Positions 35,894 to 48,571 of a stretch of 64,000 nucleotides of DNA are shown in pieces. Where the stretch lies: NCBI RefSeq assembly GCF_003428625.2, contig NZ_QVQT02000001.1, positions 62,001 through 126,000 of the forward strand, in the 5' to 3' direction. The notes under the pieces were generated by a model. The model made no database searches. It was not told where the DNA came from and was given only the letters and a program-made list of their open reading frames with translations. The position numbers and the translations under genes were made by a program. Position 1 is the stretch's first letter, and each line of letters begins with the position of its first letter. Origin of the DNA: Paracidobacterium acidisoli (GTDB taxonomy: Bacteria; Acidobacteriota; Terriglobia; Terriglobales; Acidobacteriaceae).

Positions 35894-37306
35894 ATGCGCG
35901 CCTCTGTGATCGGATCGGGACCGAATGGGCTGGCGGCGGCGATTGTCCTGGCTCAGGCCGGATTGCCGGTGGATGTCTTCGAGGCGGAAACGCAGCCCGG
36001 AGGCGCCGCGCGAACGCTTCCTTTGACGCTGACCGGCTTTCGCCATGACTTCGGCTCGGCGGTCTATCCCATGGCCGTGGGCTCGCCGTTTTTCCGCTCG
36101 CTGCCGCTCGAACAGAACGGCCTGGTCTGGATTCACGGGTCAGCGCCCCTGGCGCATCCGTTCGATGATGGTACGGCGGCCGTTCTCGAACGCGATCTGA
36201 AAGAGGCTGAGCGCACGCTGGGCGCGGACGGCAAACCGTGGCGGCGCATGGCGCAGCCCATCGTCGATCACTGGACCGCATTTGCCGAAGACGCTCTGGG
36301 ACCGGCGCTTCGCATCCCACGGCATCCGTTTCTGATGGCGCAGTTCGGCCTCAGAGCGCTGACCTCTGCCCAAACCTTCAGCAGCAATAGCTTTCAGAGC
36401 CCGCGGACGCGCGGCCTCTTTGCCGGCCTCGCGGCGCACTCGATTCTCGCGCTCGATCAGCCGCTGACCGCAGCCGTCGGCATCATGTTCGCCGCGACCG
36501 TGCATGCGCTTGGCTGGCCCATTCCGCGGGGCGGCGCGCAGGCGATTCCCGATGCGCTGATTCGCTGCCTGGAATCGCGCGGCGGAACCGTTCATACCGG
36601 ACGCCGCATCACGGCGCTGCACGAGCTGGATCACGAGGACTCGCTGATTCTTTGCGATGTCACGCCGCAGCAGCTGCTCTCCATCGCCGGAGGCCGCCTG
36701 GCCCAGTCTTACCGGCGGGCGCTGGAGGGCTTTCAGTATGGTCCCGGAGCCTTCAAGATCGACTATGCCCTGTCTGAGCCGATTCCGTGGAAGGCGCAGG
36801 AGTGCCGGCGCGCCATCACCGTGCATCTGGGCGGCACCTTCGAGGAGATCGCGCGATCGGAACATGCCGCCAGCCACGGACAGCACATCGACGAGCCCTT
36901 TGTGCTGCTCGCTCAGCCGACGCTCTTCGATGCGAGCCGCGCACCGGAAGGAAAACACATTGCCTGGGCTTACTGTCACGTGCCGAACGGCTCGACGATC
37001 GATATGACCAGCCGCATCGAGGCACAGATTGAGCGCTTCGCGCCGGGATTCCGCGATTGCGTGGTGGCGCGGCGCGTATCATCGCCCGCTGTGCTTGAGT
37101 CCATGGACGCGAACCTGATCGGCGGCGACATCAACGGAGGAGCCTTCACGCTGCGGCAGTTCTTCCTTCGCCCCGCCCTCGGCGAATACGCCACCGGCGT
37201 GCCGAACCTGTATCTTTGCTCGTCCTCCACGCCTCCCGGCGGCGGCGTACACGGCATGTGCGGGTACCATGCGGCGAAGCTGGCGCTGCGCCGACTGCGC
37301 CGCTGA
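35894..37306 (+). CDS. FAD-dependent oxidoreductase, phytoene-desaturase/PYROXD2-like
   Basis: The 470-residue protein begins with a dinucleotide-binding fold ([21 protein letters not shown]) and the second FAD motif [21 protein letters not shown]. The C-terminal FAD motif [21 protein letters not shown] is also present. The group covers carotenoid desaturases and the poorly understood PYROXD2 proteins, and no carotenoid gene is nearby. It is 3 nt from the lipase-maturation-factor gene and 83 nt upstream of glpK, so it may belong to a lipid/glycerol use transcript. Confidence 0.85.
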
Positions 37307-37389
37307 AAGGCCGCATATTCGAGCGGCAGCGAGGGCTTGCTCCGGCAGAGCAAACCGTGTCTACTGGTCTCCGCGAGGAAACCGATTCG

Positions 37390-38877
37390 ATGCCCTACAT
37401 CCTGTCGCTCGATCAGGGAACGACCAGCTCGCGGGCCATTCTTTTCAGCCACTCCGGCGAAATTGCCGCCCAGGCGCAGCATGAATTTCAGCAGATTTAT
37501 CCGAAGCCCGGATGGGTCGAGCACGACTCGTTTGAAATCCTGACGTCACAGATCAGCTCGGCCGTTGAAGCGCTGGGCAAGGCAGGTGTGCGTCCGCGCG
37601 ATGTCGCCGCCACGGGCATTACGAATCAGCGCGAAACGGTCATTGTGTGGGATCGTGAGACGGGCCGGCCTGTGTATAACGCGATCGTCTGGCAGGACCG
37701 GCGTACGGCGTCGCGCTGCAAAGAGCTGACCGGCTCGGGCGCGGAGACCATGATCCGCGAGCGGACCGGGCTGGTGATCGACCCCTATTTCTCGGCCACG
37801 AAGATCGCCTGGATTCTGGAGAATGTGGACGGCGCGCGGCAGCGCGCAGAGGATGGAAAGCTCGCCTTCGGCACCGTCGACAGCTGGCTGATCTGGAACC
37901 TGACCAGCGGCACAAAGCATGTCACCGACACGACCAACGCATCGCGCACGCTGCTCTTCAATATCGTGACCGGGCAGTGGGATGACGATCTGCTGAAGCT
38001 CTTCGGCATTCCGCGCAGCATGATGCCGGAGGTGGTGTGGTCGAGCGAGCCGGTGGGCGACGTGACCACCACGCTGGCGCTCAGCGGGATTCGCATCGCC
38101 GGCATAGCGGGCGATCAGCAGGCGGCACTCTTCGGACAGCTTTGCCTGCACCCTGGCGACGCGAAGAACACGTATGGAACCGGCTGCTTTCTGCTGGAGC
38201 ATATCGGCAACCAGTTTGTGCAGTCGAAGCACCGGCTGATTACGACGCTGGCGGCGAGCGTTGAGCGCAGGCTGGAGTATGCGCTCGAAGGCAGCATCTT
38301 TATCGGCGGAGCCGTGGTGCAGTGGCTGCGCGATAATCTGCGCATGATCCGCACTTCTTCTGAAGTGGAAGAGCTGGCTATGTCTGTGCCGGACAGCGAT
38401 GGCGTCGTCTTCGTTCCGGCCTTTGTCGGCCTTGGCGCGCCGCACTGGGACCCGTATGCCTCCGGCATGCTGATCGGCCTGCAGCGCGGCACACAGCCGG
38501 GACACATTGCGCGAGCGGCGCTGGAGAGCATCGCCTTTCAGGTGGCGGATGTGCTGGACGCGATGCGCTCGGAGACCGGCCAGGCCATTCCCGAGCTTCG
38601 CGTCGATGGCGGCGCAGCCGTCAACGATATGCTGATGCAGTTTCAGGCCGATCTGCTGGGCGTTCCTGTGGTTCGTCCCCAGGTCACGGAGACGACGGCG
38701 CTGGGCGCGGCCTATCTGGCAGGACTCGCGGTCGGCTTCTGGAAAGATCCAAAGGAGATCTGGTCGCACCGGAAGAGCGATACGCGGTTTGAGCCGAAGA
38801 TGCATCCCGCTGAAGTGCAGGCACGGCGCGAGCGCTGGAATCATGCGGTGGAGCGCGCCAGGGGCTGGTCTCGCTGA
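37390..38877 (+). CDS. glpK: Glycerol kinase
   Basis: The ATG at 37390 (GAGG upstream) gives 495 residues, the normal glycerol kinase length. FGGY-kinase motifs are complete: [55 protein letters not shown] and the second signature in [22 protein letters not shown]. It makes sn-glycerol 3-phosphate from glycerol and ATP. The next gene glpD begins on the last base of its stop codon (TGATG), indicating tight co-translation. Confidence 0.97.
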
Positions 38878-40439
38878 TGCGGCGCGAGCAGATGCTGCAG
38901 AGGCTGCGCGAGCGCAGCACGCCGTGGGACATGCTGATTATCGGCGGCGGAGCCAGCGGTGTCGGCGTTGCCGTCGATGCGGCCTCGCGCGGCTTCGACG
39001 TGCTGCTGCTGGAGGCGCAGGACTTCGGCAAGGCCACTTCAAGCCGCAGCACCAAGCTGGTGCATGGCGGCGTGCGCTACCTCGAACAGGGCAACGTCTC
39101 GCTGGTGATGTCGGCGCTGAAGGAGCGCGGGCTGCTGCGGCAGAACGCTCCGCACCTGGTGCATGACCTGGCTTTCGTCGTTCCGAATTATTCCTGGTGG
39201 GAGGCGCCGTTCTACGGCATCGGACTGAAGCTTTACGACATGCTGGCCGGCAAATATGGCTTCGGCAAATCGCGCCTGCTCTCGCCGGAAGATACGCTGG
39301 AGCTGCTGCCCACGCTCGAGACCAATGGGCTGCGCGGCGGCGTGATCTATTACGACGGCCAGTTTGATGACTCCCGCCTGCTCATTCACCTCGCGATGAC
39401 GGCCGCCGATCATGGAGCGGTGCTGATCAATTACATGCCCGCGATCGAGCTGACCAAAGACGAGGAGGGCTACCTGAACGGGGCCATCGCCAGAGACGAA
39501 GAGACCGGCGAATCCTTCACCATTGCCGCGCGGGTCGTCATCAACGCCACCGGCATTTTTACCGACCGCATTCGCAGGCTTGCCGATCCTGACGCGGCGG
39601 AGATGATGACTCCGAGCCAGGGCATTCATCTCGTCTTCGACCGCTCGTTTCTGCGCGGAGACACCGCATTGATGGTGCCGCGCACCAGTGACGGACGCGT
39701 GCTCTTTGCCATTCCCTGGCACGATCACACTGTCGTCGGCACGACGGACACTCCGCTGGAGGAAGCCGTTTACGATCCGAAACCGCTTGAGGAAGAGATC
39801 CGCTTTATCCTGGAGACGGCGGGGCTCTACCTGAGCCGTCCGCCGCAGCGAAGCGATGTGCTGAGCGTCTATGCGGGCATCCGGCCCCTGGTCAAAGCCG
39901 ACAGCGACAGCAAAACATCGGCACTTTCCCGCGATCATGTCATTCACGTCGATAACTCGGGCCTGCTGACGCTGACCGGCGGCAAGTGGACCACCTACCG
40001 GCACATGGCGGAAGACTGCGTGGATCATGCCATCACGCTGGGCCGGCTGCGGGAAGAGCCCTGCGTCACCAAAACCCTGCATATTCACGGCTATCGCGAA
40101 GAGATCGAGGATCTGGGCAGTCTGTGGGTCTATGGATCGGATGCCGATGAGATTCGCGCCATTGGCAATGCCGATCCGGCGCTGCGCGCGCCGCTTCATC
40201 CCGAGCTGCCCTGCACCGGCGCTGAAGTGGTGTGGGCCGCCCGCGCAGAGATGGCGCGCACGGTGGAAGATGTGCTGGCCCGGCGGAACCGGGCGTTGTT
40301 TCTTCATGCGCGCGCGGCAATCGCGATGGCTGAGCCGGCGGCGCGTCTTATGGCGAAGGAACTGGGACTCGACGATGCGTGGATCGCCCGTGAGGTCGAA
40401 TCCTTCCGGCAGCTGGCGCAGCAGTATCTGGTGATGTGA
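38877..40439 (+). CDS. glpD: Aerobic glycerol-3-phosphate dehydrogenase (FAD)
   Basis: The 520-residue protein has the FAD motif LIIGGGASGVGVAVDAASRG and the GlpD signature SSRSTKLVHGGVRYLEQGN near 55. Later IPWHDHTVVGTTDTPLE, GIRPLVKADSDSKTS and LTLTGGKWTTYRHMAED are also typical. It oxidises glycerol 3-phosphate to DHAP at the membrane and passes electrons to quinone. It overlaps glpK by one base; the aquaporin follows 67 nt downstream. Confidence 0.96.
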   Translation: MRREQMLQRLRERSTPWDMLIIGGGASGVGVAVDAASRGFDVLLLEAQDFGKATSSRSTKLVHGGVRYLEQGNVSLVMSALKERGLLRQNAPHLVHDLAFVVPNYSWWEAPFYGIGLKLYDMLAGKYGFGKSRLLSPEDTLELLPTLETNGLRGGVIYYDGQFDDSRLLIHLAMTAADHGAVLINYMPAIELTKDEEGYLNGAIARDEETGESFTIAARVVINATGIFTDRIRRLADPDAAEMMTPSQGIHLVFDRSFLRGDTALMVPRTSDGRVLFAIPWHDHTVVGTTDTPLEEAVYDPKPLEEEIRFILETAGLYLSRPPQRSDVLSVYAGIRPLVKADSDSKTSALSRDHVIHVDNSGLLTLTGGKWTTYRHMAEDCVDHAITLGRLREEPCVTKTLHIHGYREEIEDLGSLWVYGSDADEIRAIGNADPALRAPLHPELPCTGAEVVWAARAEMARTVEDVLARRNRALFLHARAAIAMAEPAARLMAKELGLDDAWIAREVESFRQLAQQYLVM

Positions 40440-40506
40440 TGCCGGCAAACAGCGATGGATATCGAACAACTATGGTGACGGCATCAGGAAAGTGTGAGTA
40501 CGGCAA

Positions 40507-41235
40507 ATGAGATGTCCTTTTCTCGGAGAGTTCATGGGAACTCTCATGCTGGTTTTGCTGGGTGATGGTGTCAACGCGGCCGTGCTGCTGAAGCGCTCGA
40601 AGGCGGAGGGCAGCGGCTGGATGGTCATTACGACGGGCTGGATGCTCGCCGTGCTGTGCGGCATCTTCACCGCGCAGCTCTTCGGCAGCGCCGATGCTCA
40701 TCTGAATCCGGCGATCACCCTGGCATCGGCGGCGCAGTCCGGCAGCTTCGGCCATGTCGCAGGCTTCGCGCTGGCGCAGATGCTTGGCGCATTCACGGGG
40801 GCGGTGCTGGTGTGGCTTCACTACTATCCGCACTGGAAGATCACTGATGATCCGGAGCTGAAGCGCGCCGTCTTCTGCACCGGTCCGGCGATCCGTAATC
40901 CGCTGACAAACTTTCTGAGCGAAGTGATCGGGACCGCGGTTCTTGTGCTGGTGGCGGGCGCGATGAGCTCGAAGCTGGTGCTCACCTCGGGCGCGGCGGC
41001 CGGGCTGTCGCCGTGGCTGGTGAGCTGCGTGGTCTGGGGAATCGGCCTTTCGCTCGGCGGAACGACCGGCTATGCGATCAATCCCGCGCGCGATCTGGGA
41101 CCGCGTGTGGCGCACGCTCTGATGCCGATTGCAGGCAAAGGATCGAGCGACTGGGGCTATGCCCTGATTCCAATTCTCGGCCCTGCCACCGGAGGCATAT
41201 TGGCAGGGCTGGTGCTGCGCTGGATCGGCGCTTGA
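40507..41235 (+). CDS. glpF: Aquaglyceroporin (MIP family, glycerol facilitator)
   Basis: The 242-residue protein has six hydrophobic segments and both NPA boxes: NPA at 67-69 (HLNPAIT) and the second in GYAINPARDLGPR. The aspartate directly after the second NPAR is the mark of glycerol-conducting channels rather than pure water channels. It should admit glycerol for the preceding kinase and dehydrogenase. It is convergent with the next gene, with only 11 nt between stops. Confidence 0.95.
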   Translation: MRCPFLGEFMGTLMLVLLGDGVNAAVLLKRSKAEGSGWMVITTGWMLAVLCGIFTAQLFGSADAHLNPAITLASAAQSGSFGHVAGFALAQMLGAFTGAVLVWLHYYPHWKITDDPELKRAVFCTGPAIRNPLTNFLSEVIGTAVLVLVAGAMSSKLVLTSGAAAGLSPWLVSCVVWGIGLSLGGTTGYAINPARDLGPRVAHALMPIAGKGSSDWGYALIPILGPATGGILAGLVLRWIGA

Positions 41236-41246
41236 TCAAAACATAA

Positions 41247-41951
41247 TCAGAAGTGGTGCAGGCGCTCCGGCGCAGGCACCTCAACCGGACGCGCCGCTTC
41301 GCGCTCAAGCGACCGGCTGACAAGATCGCGCGAGCCAAGCCCGACGGCCAGCGCCAGCGCCAGCACAATGCCGCCGAAGAGGATTCCGAAGGCCAGCTCG
41401 ACGATCTCACCACCAAGCGCCAGATGATCGAGAACCATGGCCGCAGTCAGAACGAAGATAAGCCAGCGCACGCCCATGCTCAGAATGCGCGCGTAGCTCA
41501 GGTTGAGATTGACGGACGCGATAAGAACGCTGCGCGAAAGGAAGCGCCCCAGAACCGTGCCGGCCAGAAGCAGAATCGCCGCGCCGATGATGCGCGGAAT
41601 ATAGGAGAAGATGTACGCGGAGATTCCGGCCTCCGACGATCCCGCTTCAAATGCGGAGACACCCACGAGCAGACCGATGATGATGAAGCCCCAGAAGATC
41701 ACCCGCGTAATCAGCAGTGTGGGCGTGTAGCGCGGCGTCCACTCGGCGATCGTGCCTGTTCCCTTACCCATGCGCTCATCGAACTTCACCGCAATGAGAA
41801 TGCGGCGCGCCAGCATGGCCAGCGCCCAGGCGATCACAAGAAAGATCAACAGCGCCACGATGAATGCCAGAATGCCGGGCAGCAGTATGGCGATCTTGTT
41901 AATCACCCGCACCATCGACTGGTGAAGCGATTGTTCGACCTGATTCCACAT
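41247..41951 (-). CDS. Membrane protein with conserved TM-helix repeats (mechanosensitive-channel-like)
   Basis: The 234-residue protein has about five transmembrane helices. Its first helix block LPGILAFIVALLIFLVIAWALAMLARRILIAVKFDERMGKG-like layout (broken by a charged turn) repeats later as ILLLAGTVLGRFLSRSVLIA. The terminal helix ILFGGIVLALALAVGLGSRDLVSRSLE resembles the pore-lining helix of MscS-type channels. It is the last gene of the glgE operon, 21 nt after the glycosyltransferase-like gene. A channel or scaffold role is plausible, and there is no full MscS soluble domain. Confidence 0.75.
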   Translation of the reverse strand: MWNQVEQSLHQSMVRVINKIAILLPGILAFIVALLIFLVIAWALAMLARRILIAVKFDERMGKGTGTIAEWTPRYTPTLLITRVIFWGFIIIGLLVGVSAFEAGSSEAGISAYIFSYIPRIIGAAILLLAGTVLGRFLSRSVLIASVNLNLSYARILSMGVRWLIFVLTAAMVLDHLALGGEIVELAFGILFGGIVLALALAVGLGSRDLVSRSLEREAARPVEVPAPERLHHF

Positions 41952-41972: not shown

Positions 41973-43211
41973 CTACGGATTGAACCGGTCCGGCCATCTC
42001 CAGCGCGAAACCAGATATGGCTTGTTGTCTTCGTAAGCGCGAGCCAGCTGCTCCAGCCGCTGTTCGGCCGCCGCATGGGTCATATTTGATACTTCTCTGA
42101 CGTAGGACGCTACCCATCCCAGGTAGAGCGGCGTCAGCGCGCCCAGCAGATGTGTCCGGCTGATGGTGCGCAGCCGGTGTGCGAGAGCGAAGTCGTACAC
42201 AATTTTCACCCACAGCGTGTCGGGCATGCGAAACTGCTCCGGCGACTGGCGAGCGAGATGCTTCAGCTCAAGCAGAGTGACGGGAGGCAGCACCAGACGC
42301 CACACCTCATCCAGGTTCTTCGATCCCAGAAGAAATGAGTCGATCATCGGCTTCGCATCGATTGGCTCCTCGCTCACCGGGGGCGGCGTGGGCGTTCCCC
42401 ACGTGGGCGTCTGCTGCGAGGCGCGCACGCGCTGCCACTGCGCCGCATACTGCTCCATTTCGAGAAAAGCGGAGCCGACAAGCTGCGCAAGCACGACGCT
42501 TAGTTCCAGACCCTCGGTGGGAACGTGGTGATGCACATCGAGATATACCTGGCCGATCGGAGCAGCATCGATGGCGGCGACGGTCGCAGGCCACAGAAGA
42601 GAGCGATCCGCCTGATTGCCCGAGCGCGCAGACAGAGCAAGCCGCGTGCTCAGCCGCGCCGACACGCCGAATTCAAATGGCAGAGGATAGCGTACGCGCC
42701 GCCCGTAAAGCGCCCGCGTCAGCGGTGAGAGGATGCCGCTGTTGATCAGTCCGTCGTACTTCCCGACGGGATAAATCGGCGTCACCAGATCGCACTGCTT
42801 TTCGACCGAAGCGTAGAGCAGCATCTGAATGCTCTGCACATGGAGCGCAACCAGATCTGCATTGAGGACGAGACAGCTTCCCGCGTTCAGCAGCGCCGCT
42901 ATCTCCAGAATGGAGCGCTGCGCCGATGCGGCTTCGATCCACAGCTCGCCGGCTGGTCCGGAAGACGGCGACGGATATTGCAGGCACACAACGGTCGAAT
43001 CCGGAGCGGAGGGAGGCTGCTCCGGCGGCGTGTCTCCGGGAAACGCAAAGACGATCTTCTGCGCCGTCTCGCCCAGCTCCGCAATCACCTGCGCCGCGCG
43101 TTCATAAAAACCATCGCGGCCGACTGTGCCCCAGACACCGATCAGGACGTCGACAGAACCGATCGCTTCAATCCTGCGTTTTGTCTCTTCCGGAAGTTCC
43201 ACTCTTGCCAT
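41973..43211 (-). CDS. Putative GT-A glycosyltransferase, GpgS/mannosylglycerate-synthase-like
   Basis: This is a 412-residue protein of uncertain family. A central GT-A-like core has the candidate metal motif LNADLVAL near residue 117. Next come DLVTPIYPVGKYDGLINSGI and PLTRALYGRRVRYPLPFEFG near 150-180, then a helical C-terminal part (WVKIVYDFALAHR, LLGALTPLYLGWVASYV). This order resembles retaining glucosyl-3-phosphoglycerate (GT81) and mannosylglycerate (GT78) synthases, in which a P-L-x-x-E/G segment follows the D-x-D. The N-terminal donor-binding segment (SVDVLIGVWGTVGRDGF) is atypical. It lies in the glgE operon, 18 nt after the treS fusion. Function is inference. Confidence 0.6.
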   Translation of the reverse strand: MARVELPEETKRRIEAIGSVDVLIGVWGTVGRDGFYERAAQVIAELGETAQKIVFAFPGDTPPEQPPSAPDSTVVCLQYPSPSSGPAGELWIEAASAQRSILEIAALLNAGSCLVLNADLVALHVQSIQMLLYASVEKQCDLVTPIYPVGKYDGLINSGILSPLTRALYGRRVRYPLPFEFGVSARLSTRLALSARSGNQADRSLLWPATVAAIDAAPIGQVYLDVHHHVPTEGLELSVVLAQLVGSAFLEMEQYAAQWQRVRASQQTPTWGTPTPPPVSEEPIDAKPMIDSFLLGSKNLDEVWRLVLPPVTLLELKHLARQSPEQFRMPDTLWVKIVYDFALAHRLRTISRTHLLGALTPLYLGWVASYVREVSNMTHAAAEQRLEQLARAYEDNKPYLVSRWRWPDRFNP

Positions 43212-43229: not shown

Positions 43230-46559
<3,330 letters not shown>

Positions 46560-46573
46560 TCTGCTGACGATCC

Positions 46574-48571
46574 TTACTGGTAGTAATCGAAATCATTTTC
46601 CGATCGCACGCGCCGCAGAATGCGGAAGACATGCGCCGGTAATTTCTCCGGAGCCAGCTCCACATAGTTGCTCCGGCCCTGCCACAGATAGGTCTGCCCG
46701 GTAAGCAGATCGCGCACCTGAAAGCTCTCCTCCTCGCCAAGCTGCAGATGATCCAGATCAAGACTGACCCAGCCCGACTGCGTATGGAAAGGATCGAGAT
46801 TCACAACGGTAACGATCATATTCGATCGCTCCGGATTCGACTTGCTGTACGCGATCAGCTGCGGGTTATCCGTGGCGTGGAAGTACAGATCGTGATTCGT
46901 GTGCAGCGCCGCATTATCGCGGCGCGCGCGGTTCAGCGCGGTGATCACTCCCTGAATGCTCTCCGGCGCGTCTGTATTCCAGTGCTTCAGCTCATACTTT
47001 TCCGAATCCAGATACTCTTCGCTTCCCTGCCGCACGGGCTGGTTCACGCACAGCTCATAGGCAGGACCATAGATGCCGTAGTTCGAGCTCAGCGTCGCAG
47101 CCAGCACCAGCCGGCTGATAAAGGCCGGCCGACCGCCGGTCTGCAGGCTCTCGTGAAGAATATCGGGAGTGTTCGGCCAGAAGCTGGGGCGGAAGTACTC
47201 TTTCAGCTCGCTCTGCGTCAGCTCTTCGAGATACTCTGTCAGCTCCTGTTTTGTATTACGCCACGTGAAATAGGTATAGGACTGCGAAAAGCCGAGCTTC
47301 GCCAGCCGCTGCATCACACGCGGACGCGTAAAGGCCTCGGCCAGAAACAGCGCCTCCGGATGGTCGCGTTTGATCTCCGCAATCGCCCACTCCCAGAAAG
47401 GAAAGGCCTTGGTATGCGGATTATCGACGCGAAAGATGCTCACTCCCTTGTCGAGCCAGAAGAGAAACACATCTCTGAGCGCGTTCCATAAGCCCCGCCA
47501 GTCACTGCTTTCAAAGTTCAGCGGATAAATATCCTGATACTTCTTGGGCGGATTCTCCGCGTACTGAATCGTTCCGTCGGCCCGTTTCTTAAACCACTCC
47601 GGATGCTCGCGCACCCAGGGATGATCCGGAGAGCACTGGAAGGCGATGTCCAGAGCGATCTCGAGGCCGAGCTGATTCGACTTTCGTACCAGGCTGCGGA
47701 ATTCCGCGAGTGTGCCGAGCTGCGTGTGGATCGCCGTGTGACCGCCGTCGGATGCTCCGATCGCCCAGGGGCTGCCGACATCGCCTGGCGCGGCATCGAC
47801 GGCATTGTTCTTTCCCTTGCGGAAGCTCCGGCCGATGGGATGAATCGGCGGCAGATACAGAACGTCGAAGCCCAGACCGGCAACGTAGTCGAGCCGCTCC
47901 TCACAGTCTCTGAAGGTCCCGTGCCTGCCCGGCTCGAATGATGCCGAGCGGGGGAAGATCTCATACCACGCGGAAAAGCCGGCACGCTTCCGATCCACCG
48001 TTACGGAAAGAGCGGGCTCGTATTGCGTCTCCAGCGTTTCGTCATAACAGCGCTGCATCAGCGCCGCGAGCCCGGGATGCAGCGCGGTCTCCTTCACTCC
48101 TTCGTCGCCCACGTGCTCGCGAAGCAGATTCTTCCAGAGGCGCAGTTCTTTCAGGTCATCGCCCGCAGCACGGCGCTCGGCCTCTTCGATCAGCACGGCT
48201 CCGTTGAGCAGGTCCACGCGGATATCCTGCCCGGCCTCCATGCGCTTCAGCAGGTCGGCGCGCCATGTATCGAAGTGATCGATATGGCCCGCGATGGTAT
48301 AGGCATACTGCCCCATCTGCGTTACCGGAAACTCGCCGCGCCAGCGGTCATTTCCCAGCGAGACCATCTCCAGACGCTGCCATACGGTTTCCTGGGCGGG
48401 CCGCCAGAGCAGTTGAGCCGCAACGTGGTCGTGCCCATCGGCAAATACGTCTGCTTCAACCGATACTGTTTCTCCCACTGTTCGTTTGATCGGGAACAAC
48501 CCCGAGTCGATCTGAGGGGTTACCGCTTCTATGACGACACGCTTTCGTCCGTCGAATTGTGTCAGTTTCAC
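46574..48571 (-). CDS. glgE: Alpha-1,4-glucan:maltose-1-phosphate maltosyltransferase
   Basis: The 665-residue protein has the GlgE N-terminal domain ([20 protein letters not shown]) and a GH13_3 barrel with [18 protein letters not shown] near 235 and [17 protein letters not shown] near 303. Nucleophile D383 is in [10 protein letters not shown] and acid/base E412 in FLAEAFTRP. It extends alpha-1,4-glucan using maltose 1-phosphate with retention, independently of ADP-glucose. It is first in a four-gene minus-strand operon (glgE, treS-maltokinase, glycosyltransferase-like, membrane protein). A branching enzyme gene is not present in the window. Confidence 0.96.

Follow-up and report, generated by a model that had tools for sequence, protein, structure and literature searches.

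A probable pseudo-glycosyltransferase encoded beside a small membrane protein in a trehalose/GlgE operon of Paracidobacterium acidisoli

The window, that is, the whole stretch of 64,000 nucleotides from Paracidobacterium acidisoli which was analysed, raises the question whether a protein resembling a glycosyltransferase with an aberrant metal motif still is an enzyme and, if not, for what it could have been retained. The open reading frame at 41973..43211 on the minus strand starts with ATG and encodes 412 amino acids. A first-pass annotation had described it as a divergent relative of GpgS and mannosylglycerate synthase (MGS), and the frame as well as the motifs IYP-x4-DGLINSGI and PLTRALYGRR-x-RYPLPFEFG are found as it gave them; the triplet N-A-D, which takes the place of the DxD metal motif, corresponds to residues 117-119 (42855..42863, minus strand). 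The gene is the third in a run on the minus strand which comprises GlgE (46574..48571; PF11896 and PF21702), a trehalose synthase-maltokinase fusion (TreS-Pep2/Mak, 43230..46559), the gene under study and a small membrane protein of 234 amino acids (41247..41951), with intergenic gaps of 14, 18 and 21 bases in this order. The fusion scores 938.3 bits with TIGR02456 (cut-off 678.35) and 461.9 bits with TIGR02457 (cut-off 375.05). Judged by eye, Shine-Dalgarno-like stretches precede the ATG of our gene and that of the membrane-protein gene; promoter and terminator scans gave nothing useful.

Searched by itself, the protein stays below every Pfam and NCBIfam cut-off and lacks a significant match in the PDB. 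Its sole Pfam listing is NTP_transf_3 (E = 0.093), and a search of its own genome retrieves just the protein itself. We modelled it together with 72 relatives using AlphaFold and obtained a mean pLDDT of 92.5 and a pTM of 0.92. The top Foldseek matches of the model are mannosylglycerate synthase structures (E = 6.6e-11). With the MGS of Rhodothermus marinus (GT78; PDB 2bo4, 2bo7, 2y4j) VIA-align yields a Z of 28.2 over 349 residues at an rmsd of 4.3 Å and 13% identity, and the superposition spans model residues 22-402, so that both domains of the two-domain MGS fold are present. The next family after MGS is GtrB (Z 14.2 over 214 residues). GpgS (GT81; PDB 7pdo, 4y6n) has the GT-A fold in common with the model, but its structural match is far lower than that of MGS (Z about 12-13 over about 220 residues). 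The comparison with MGS and GpgS thus upholds the GT78/GT81-like GT-A core which the first-pass annotation had proposed. In the model the GT-A domain covers residues ~19-260 and a helical C-terminal domain residues ~287-400; they are followed by a conserved tail (401-412), which the MGS structures lack and which ends in the near-invariant RWRWPDRFNP (residues 403-412; 41976..42005, minus strand).

A single-sequence search of the genomes of named species gave no relative; the later alignment search did and yielded 244 relatives, from which we retained 80 loci as group III. The closest protein matches in these genomes are from Acidobacteriaceae, and we take all 80 loci to belong to the Acidobacteriota. 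A profile of more distant relatives has matches in 107 of the 396 genomes of the phylum; the best 30 were retrieved, and hence the sample favours intact group I genes. Among 100 related genomes, the own genome included, 33 have a family match (E<=1e-3). We set three groups from motifs and gene context together. Group III, the clade of the window, consists of the window gene and the loci of the alignment search and has eroded GT-A motifs. Group II consists of the TreS-linked members of alignment A2, which have the donor loop and lack the DxD; as the TreS link helped to define this group, it is not an independent result. The remainder forms group I, in which all GT-A motifs are present. Residue columns were counted over 79 group III rows (the 80 loci and the window, with L082 and L092 omitted as incomplete), 14 group II rows (L129 omitted as incomplete) and 35 group I rows, which represent 34 distinct genes since L015 and L113 are the same gene.

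A PDB search with the group I profile leads to both GpgS (E = 1.2e-6) and MGS (2bo4, E = 3.5e-6), and one group I protein, L133, passes the Pfam family MGS_GT (PF21969) with 32.7 bits against a cut-off of 27. The group III profile retrieves nothing relevant from the PDB and no GpgS at E<=10. Neither the window protein nor the 15 clade members of alignment A1 match MGS_GT at E<=0.1; NTP_transf_3 matches, weak and below the cut-off, occur in 8 of these 15. Group I is homologous to the window protein along its full length, and so sequence matches and structure matches both support a chain from the window over group I to MGS.

In GpgS and MGS the pairs Lys114/Lys76, Asp134/Asp100 and Glu232/Asp192 form a network round the donor sugar, and Asp136/Asp102 binds the metal, in MGS together with His217 (PMC2581804). 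In the 34 group I genes the columns Lys76/114, Asp100/134, Asp102/136, Asp192/Glu232 and His217/258 are intact but for two substitutions, one S at Asp102 and one E at Asp192. The alignment gives for the window protein a gap, N, D, L and H at MGS Lys76, Asp100, Asp102, Asp192 and His217; thus neither the window protein, which also lacks the donor loop, nor its clade carries the MGS catalytic set. Of the GpgS residues, the window protein likewise lacks an equivalent of the first Asp of the DxD, of the PGKG Lys and of Glu232. Within group III 76/79 rows have a gap at Lys76 and one has Lys. At Asp100 we count 39 G, 15 A, 9 H, 5 N, 3 D and others, and at Asp102, which is not conserved in the clade, 47 D, 16 E and others. 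The Asp192 column holds L, V, F, I or M in 71/79 rows and E in a single one (with one row outside the eight residues listed). His in the metal-His column is equally unconserved, as just five of the 79 have it, the window protein among them.

The N-A-D triplet itself, which had been read as a non-standard metal motif, occurs once in 79 clade members and is therefore not a conserved new motif. Its column contains 34 different triplets, D being first in 3 and third in 47, so that the homologue alignment proposed as a check shows the triplet not to be invariant. In the clade alignment, none of the acidic residues in the donor half of group III is invariant. The first-pass annotation had left the choice between a new retaining glycosyltransferase subfamily and a non-catalytic relative. 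The latter is favoured, for the loss extends to other catalytic positions; the former finds little support given the missing invariant acid, though the column of MGS Glu166 holds D or E in 77/79. We conclude that the loss of catalysis in the clade of the window is well supported by sequence. This Glu166-column acid and the Asp of DGGS, retained in 21/79, nevertheless tell against a complete loss everywhere. Together with the 47 third-position D and the metal His of the window protein they leave room for some group III members which may still bind a nucleotide or metal weakly. The Thr139 column has a conserved Asn in 74/79.

A second TreS-linked group without DxD and Lys is formed by group II (L112, L116-L129). 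Here Lys and the first Asp are lost in 14/14 and the His in 12/14, the first two losses being common to the clade of the window. Group II differs from that clade in that the donor loop DGGS is kept (Asp and Ser in 14/14), in the Glu which 11/14 have at the Asp192 column and in the tail RWRWPDRFNP, which is found in 0/14. From these residues, group II proteins could bind a nucleotide without turnover.

Is the gene decaying? In 14 close group III pairs (dS<0.6) dN/dS is 0.097-0.212. Apart from the window gene, group III has 78 complete genes, of which 31 entered the test; 10 of the 14 pairs derive from five related loci, and none includes the window gene. More distant pairs reach dN/dS values of up to 0.73 at a near-saturated dS. 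The clade of the window is under purifying selection. None of the family matches listed in the related genomes has an internal stop, and these stop-free matches, the 244 relatives and the dN/dS of the close pairs establish 41973-43211 as a real gene. What characterizes a pseudo-glycosyltransferase, that is, a glycosyltransferase fold, lost catalytic residues and purifying selection, is therefore found here.

The site of conservation has moved. In group I the mean column entropy is 1.35 bits in the donor half, 1.87 in the C-terminal helices and 2.46 in the tail; in group III the corresponding values are 2.71, 1.23 and 0.29 bits, and group II is even (1.10 and 1.13 bits in donor half and C-terminal helices). 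Conservation in group III is relocated to the C-terminal domain and the tail, the inverse of group I. WRWPDRFNP forms the C-terminal end in 63/79 group III proteins, with variants in the other 16. Model confidence drops at the tail (pLDDT blocks of 78 and 45), which would fit a tail that folds on a partner.

A candidate for such a partner is the product of the membrane-protein gene downstream. It contains the MS_channel_1st_1 helices (PF05552, 39.4 bits, cut-off 22), and with 56.2 bits stays below the cut-off of the NCBIfam family msc (100 bits). The MscS cage domain is unmatched, as Pfam gave the membrane-helix family alone. The model of the membrane protein is middling (pLDDT 76.2), and the fold search with it returned no match at E<=1e-3, MscS having an E of 6 over 88 columns; the label 'channel' therefore derives from the Pfam helix family, with a middling model and a fold search without significant match. 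Among the 100 related genomes the membrane protein is present in 32 of the 33 family-bearing ones and in 2 of the 67 others, in two-by-two co-occurrence tests which ignore phylogeny. By coordinates both genes lie on the same strand and within about 230 bases of each other in all 32 co-occurring genomes, and the one genome that has the family without the membrane protein, G047, has its gene at a contig end. The membrane protein is likewise present in 78/80 group III loci, and both misses (L033, L049) reach the contig end. In the two genomes which have it without a family match, the relatives of the membrane protein lie inside 531-aa frames (G080:C32:26896-27519 and G088:C38:31691-32320).

The C-termini of the membrane proteins were read where the stop falls in the locus, that is, for 76/80 loci of group III, 16/24 of group I and 13/14 of group II. 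After a variable linker the protein ends in H-[FLIV] in 76/76 complete members of group III and 16/16 of group I; in the window this end is LHHF (41250-41261, minus strand). In group II 11/13 lack the C-terminal H plus hydrophobic residue and mostly end in SPL. The conserved end looks as would a C-terminal docking peptide, to judge from its sequence.

Which pathway does the pair belong to? TreS is found upstream on the same strand in 71/80 group III loci, GlgE within the locus in 40/80, and in all 15 group II loci TreS is next to the gene; group II genes, too, have the membrane protein as a neighbour. In six group III loci (L090, L097, L100-L103) TreY, TreZ and a trehalase-like GH15 protein in a divergent cluster replace TreS; these loci retain the group III gene, the tail and the membrane protein. 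In L083 both the tail and the membrane protein are present, but its locus contains no TreS and no GpgS; among 13 group III rows compared, this one shows the least erosion (HSDGGSTDG, SPDLQSI, KVHPS). Half of the 100 related genomes have TreS (50), among them all 30 with a group II or III gene; the three family-bearing genomes without it (G025, G095, G098) all have group I genes. As 20 of the 67 family-free genomes possess TreS as well, TreS does not need the pseudo-glycosyltransferase. TreS and one GlgE are among the proteins reported in PMC7074687 as up-regulated in a Granulicella under high sugar.

The neighbourhood of group I differs. We read it for 24 loci, of which 17 have a GpgS-like protein, 17 a mannosyl-3-phosphoglycerate-phosphatase-like protein, 17 a similar membrane protein and none TreS. 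In the group I cluster at L163:6632-10695 a GpgS-like protein, a phosphatase, an intact MGS-like transferase and an MscS-related protein lie together, and L164, L171 and L114 are similar; such clusters are predicted to make a glycosylated glucosylglycerate osmolyte. In the genome from which the window comes, a search run with no positive control turned up no GpgS relative, and we do not claim absence.

In a quick maximum-likelihood tree of 86 rows, including 38 of the 79 group III members, group I comes out as paraphyletic; within it groups II and III each form a clade of their own (SH-aLRT 100 and 99), and L083 is the first branch of group III. The root was set, by choice, on six rows of group I. 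A single clade of II and III is not rejected in the AU test (p = 0.335); catalysis may thus have been lost once or twice, and we do not claim the two losses drawn by the best tree.

We lean towards the view that the window protein is a non-catalytic pseudo-glycosyltransferase which acts as soluble partner of the membrane protein in the trehalose/GlgE operon. Its partner role we infer from gene order and conservation; physical binding, regulation, any ligand and the lack of sugar transfer are likewise inferences. The following course appears plausible. The ancestor would have been an active MGS-like glycosyltransferase tied to the glucosylglycerate osmolyte pathway. Then catalysis would have been lost and the protein retained as a soluble regulatory or scaffold protein. 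The C-terminal helical domain and the RWRWPDRFNP tail probably bind a partner, in the first place the cytosolic portion of the membrane protein encoded directly downstream. Such binding would couple an MscS-related membrane protein to trehalose/maltose-1-phosphate (TreS-GlgE) metabolism, and the pair might respond to, or adjust, the osmolyte or glucan pool of the operon.

Some observations sit uneasily with this partnership. The two genes may lie side by side simply because they are regulated together, L083 as the first branch of the clade has no TreS or GpgS in its locus, and the membrane proteins of group II mostly end in SPL. It is possible, if doubtful, that the protein is instead a non-catalytic regulator or scaffold of TreS-Mak or GlgE themselves and the membrane gene a co-regulated passenger. 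The place of TreS upstream of most group III genes and beside every group II gene, and its presence in all 30 genomes with such genes, would suit a regulator of this kind; the six loci with TreY/TreZ, which keep gene, tail and membrane protein, do not, nor does L083 with neither system, and group I pairs the family with the membrane protein in 17/24 loci and with TreS in 0/24. We consider it improbable that the protein is an active, metal-independent glycosyltransferase with a re-invented active site. An MGS fold of nearly full length, purifying selection, the Asn at the Thr139 column, the acid at the Glu166 column and the sub-cut-off NTP_transf_3 matches speak for such an enzyme, but the donor half is the least conserved part and without invariant acid, the Lys76 column is mostly a gap and the Asp192 column hydrophobic. 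A functionless, decaying gene, finally, would account for the lost catalytic motifs and is hardly credible in view of the low dN/dS in the close pairs, matches free of internal stops and a near-invariant tail.

The preferred reading, a soluble pseudo-glycosyltransferase partner, can be extended to a wider picture, which as a whole seems rather unlikely to us. Here the glycosyltransferase fold would now serve an MscS-like channel without a cage as its cytosolic subunit. An osmolyte-making transferase would ancestrally have sat on the channel, and in the clade of the window it would be dead and serve as sensor or gate in the trehalose/GlgE operon, a conversion that perhaps took place twice (groups II and III).

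Proteins that are dead relatives of glycosyltransferases are already known. Our search of the literature found no trehalose/GlgE operon in which a dead clade of MGS-like proteins is paired with a protein related to MscS. What the family offers is a graded series from an apparently active transferase of an osmolyte pathway to a dead relative while the membrane partner stays constant, and with such a series the role of a pseudo-glycosyltransferase can be put to the test in Acidobacteriota that grow in culture. Should the two proteins form a physical pair, this would represent a novel link between solute synthesis and a membrane channel. For annotation we advise caution: in this clade, which comprises at least 79 genes, an MGS-like fold should not be read as a sign of an active glycosyltransferase.

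On the other strand of the window, at 37216-41235, we observed glycerol-3-phosphate dehydrogenase and aquaporin-type genes and a glycerol-kinase-like frame, the last named by eye; this gene order is preserved in L042, L046 and L054.
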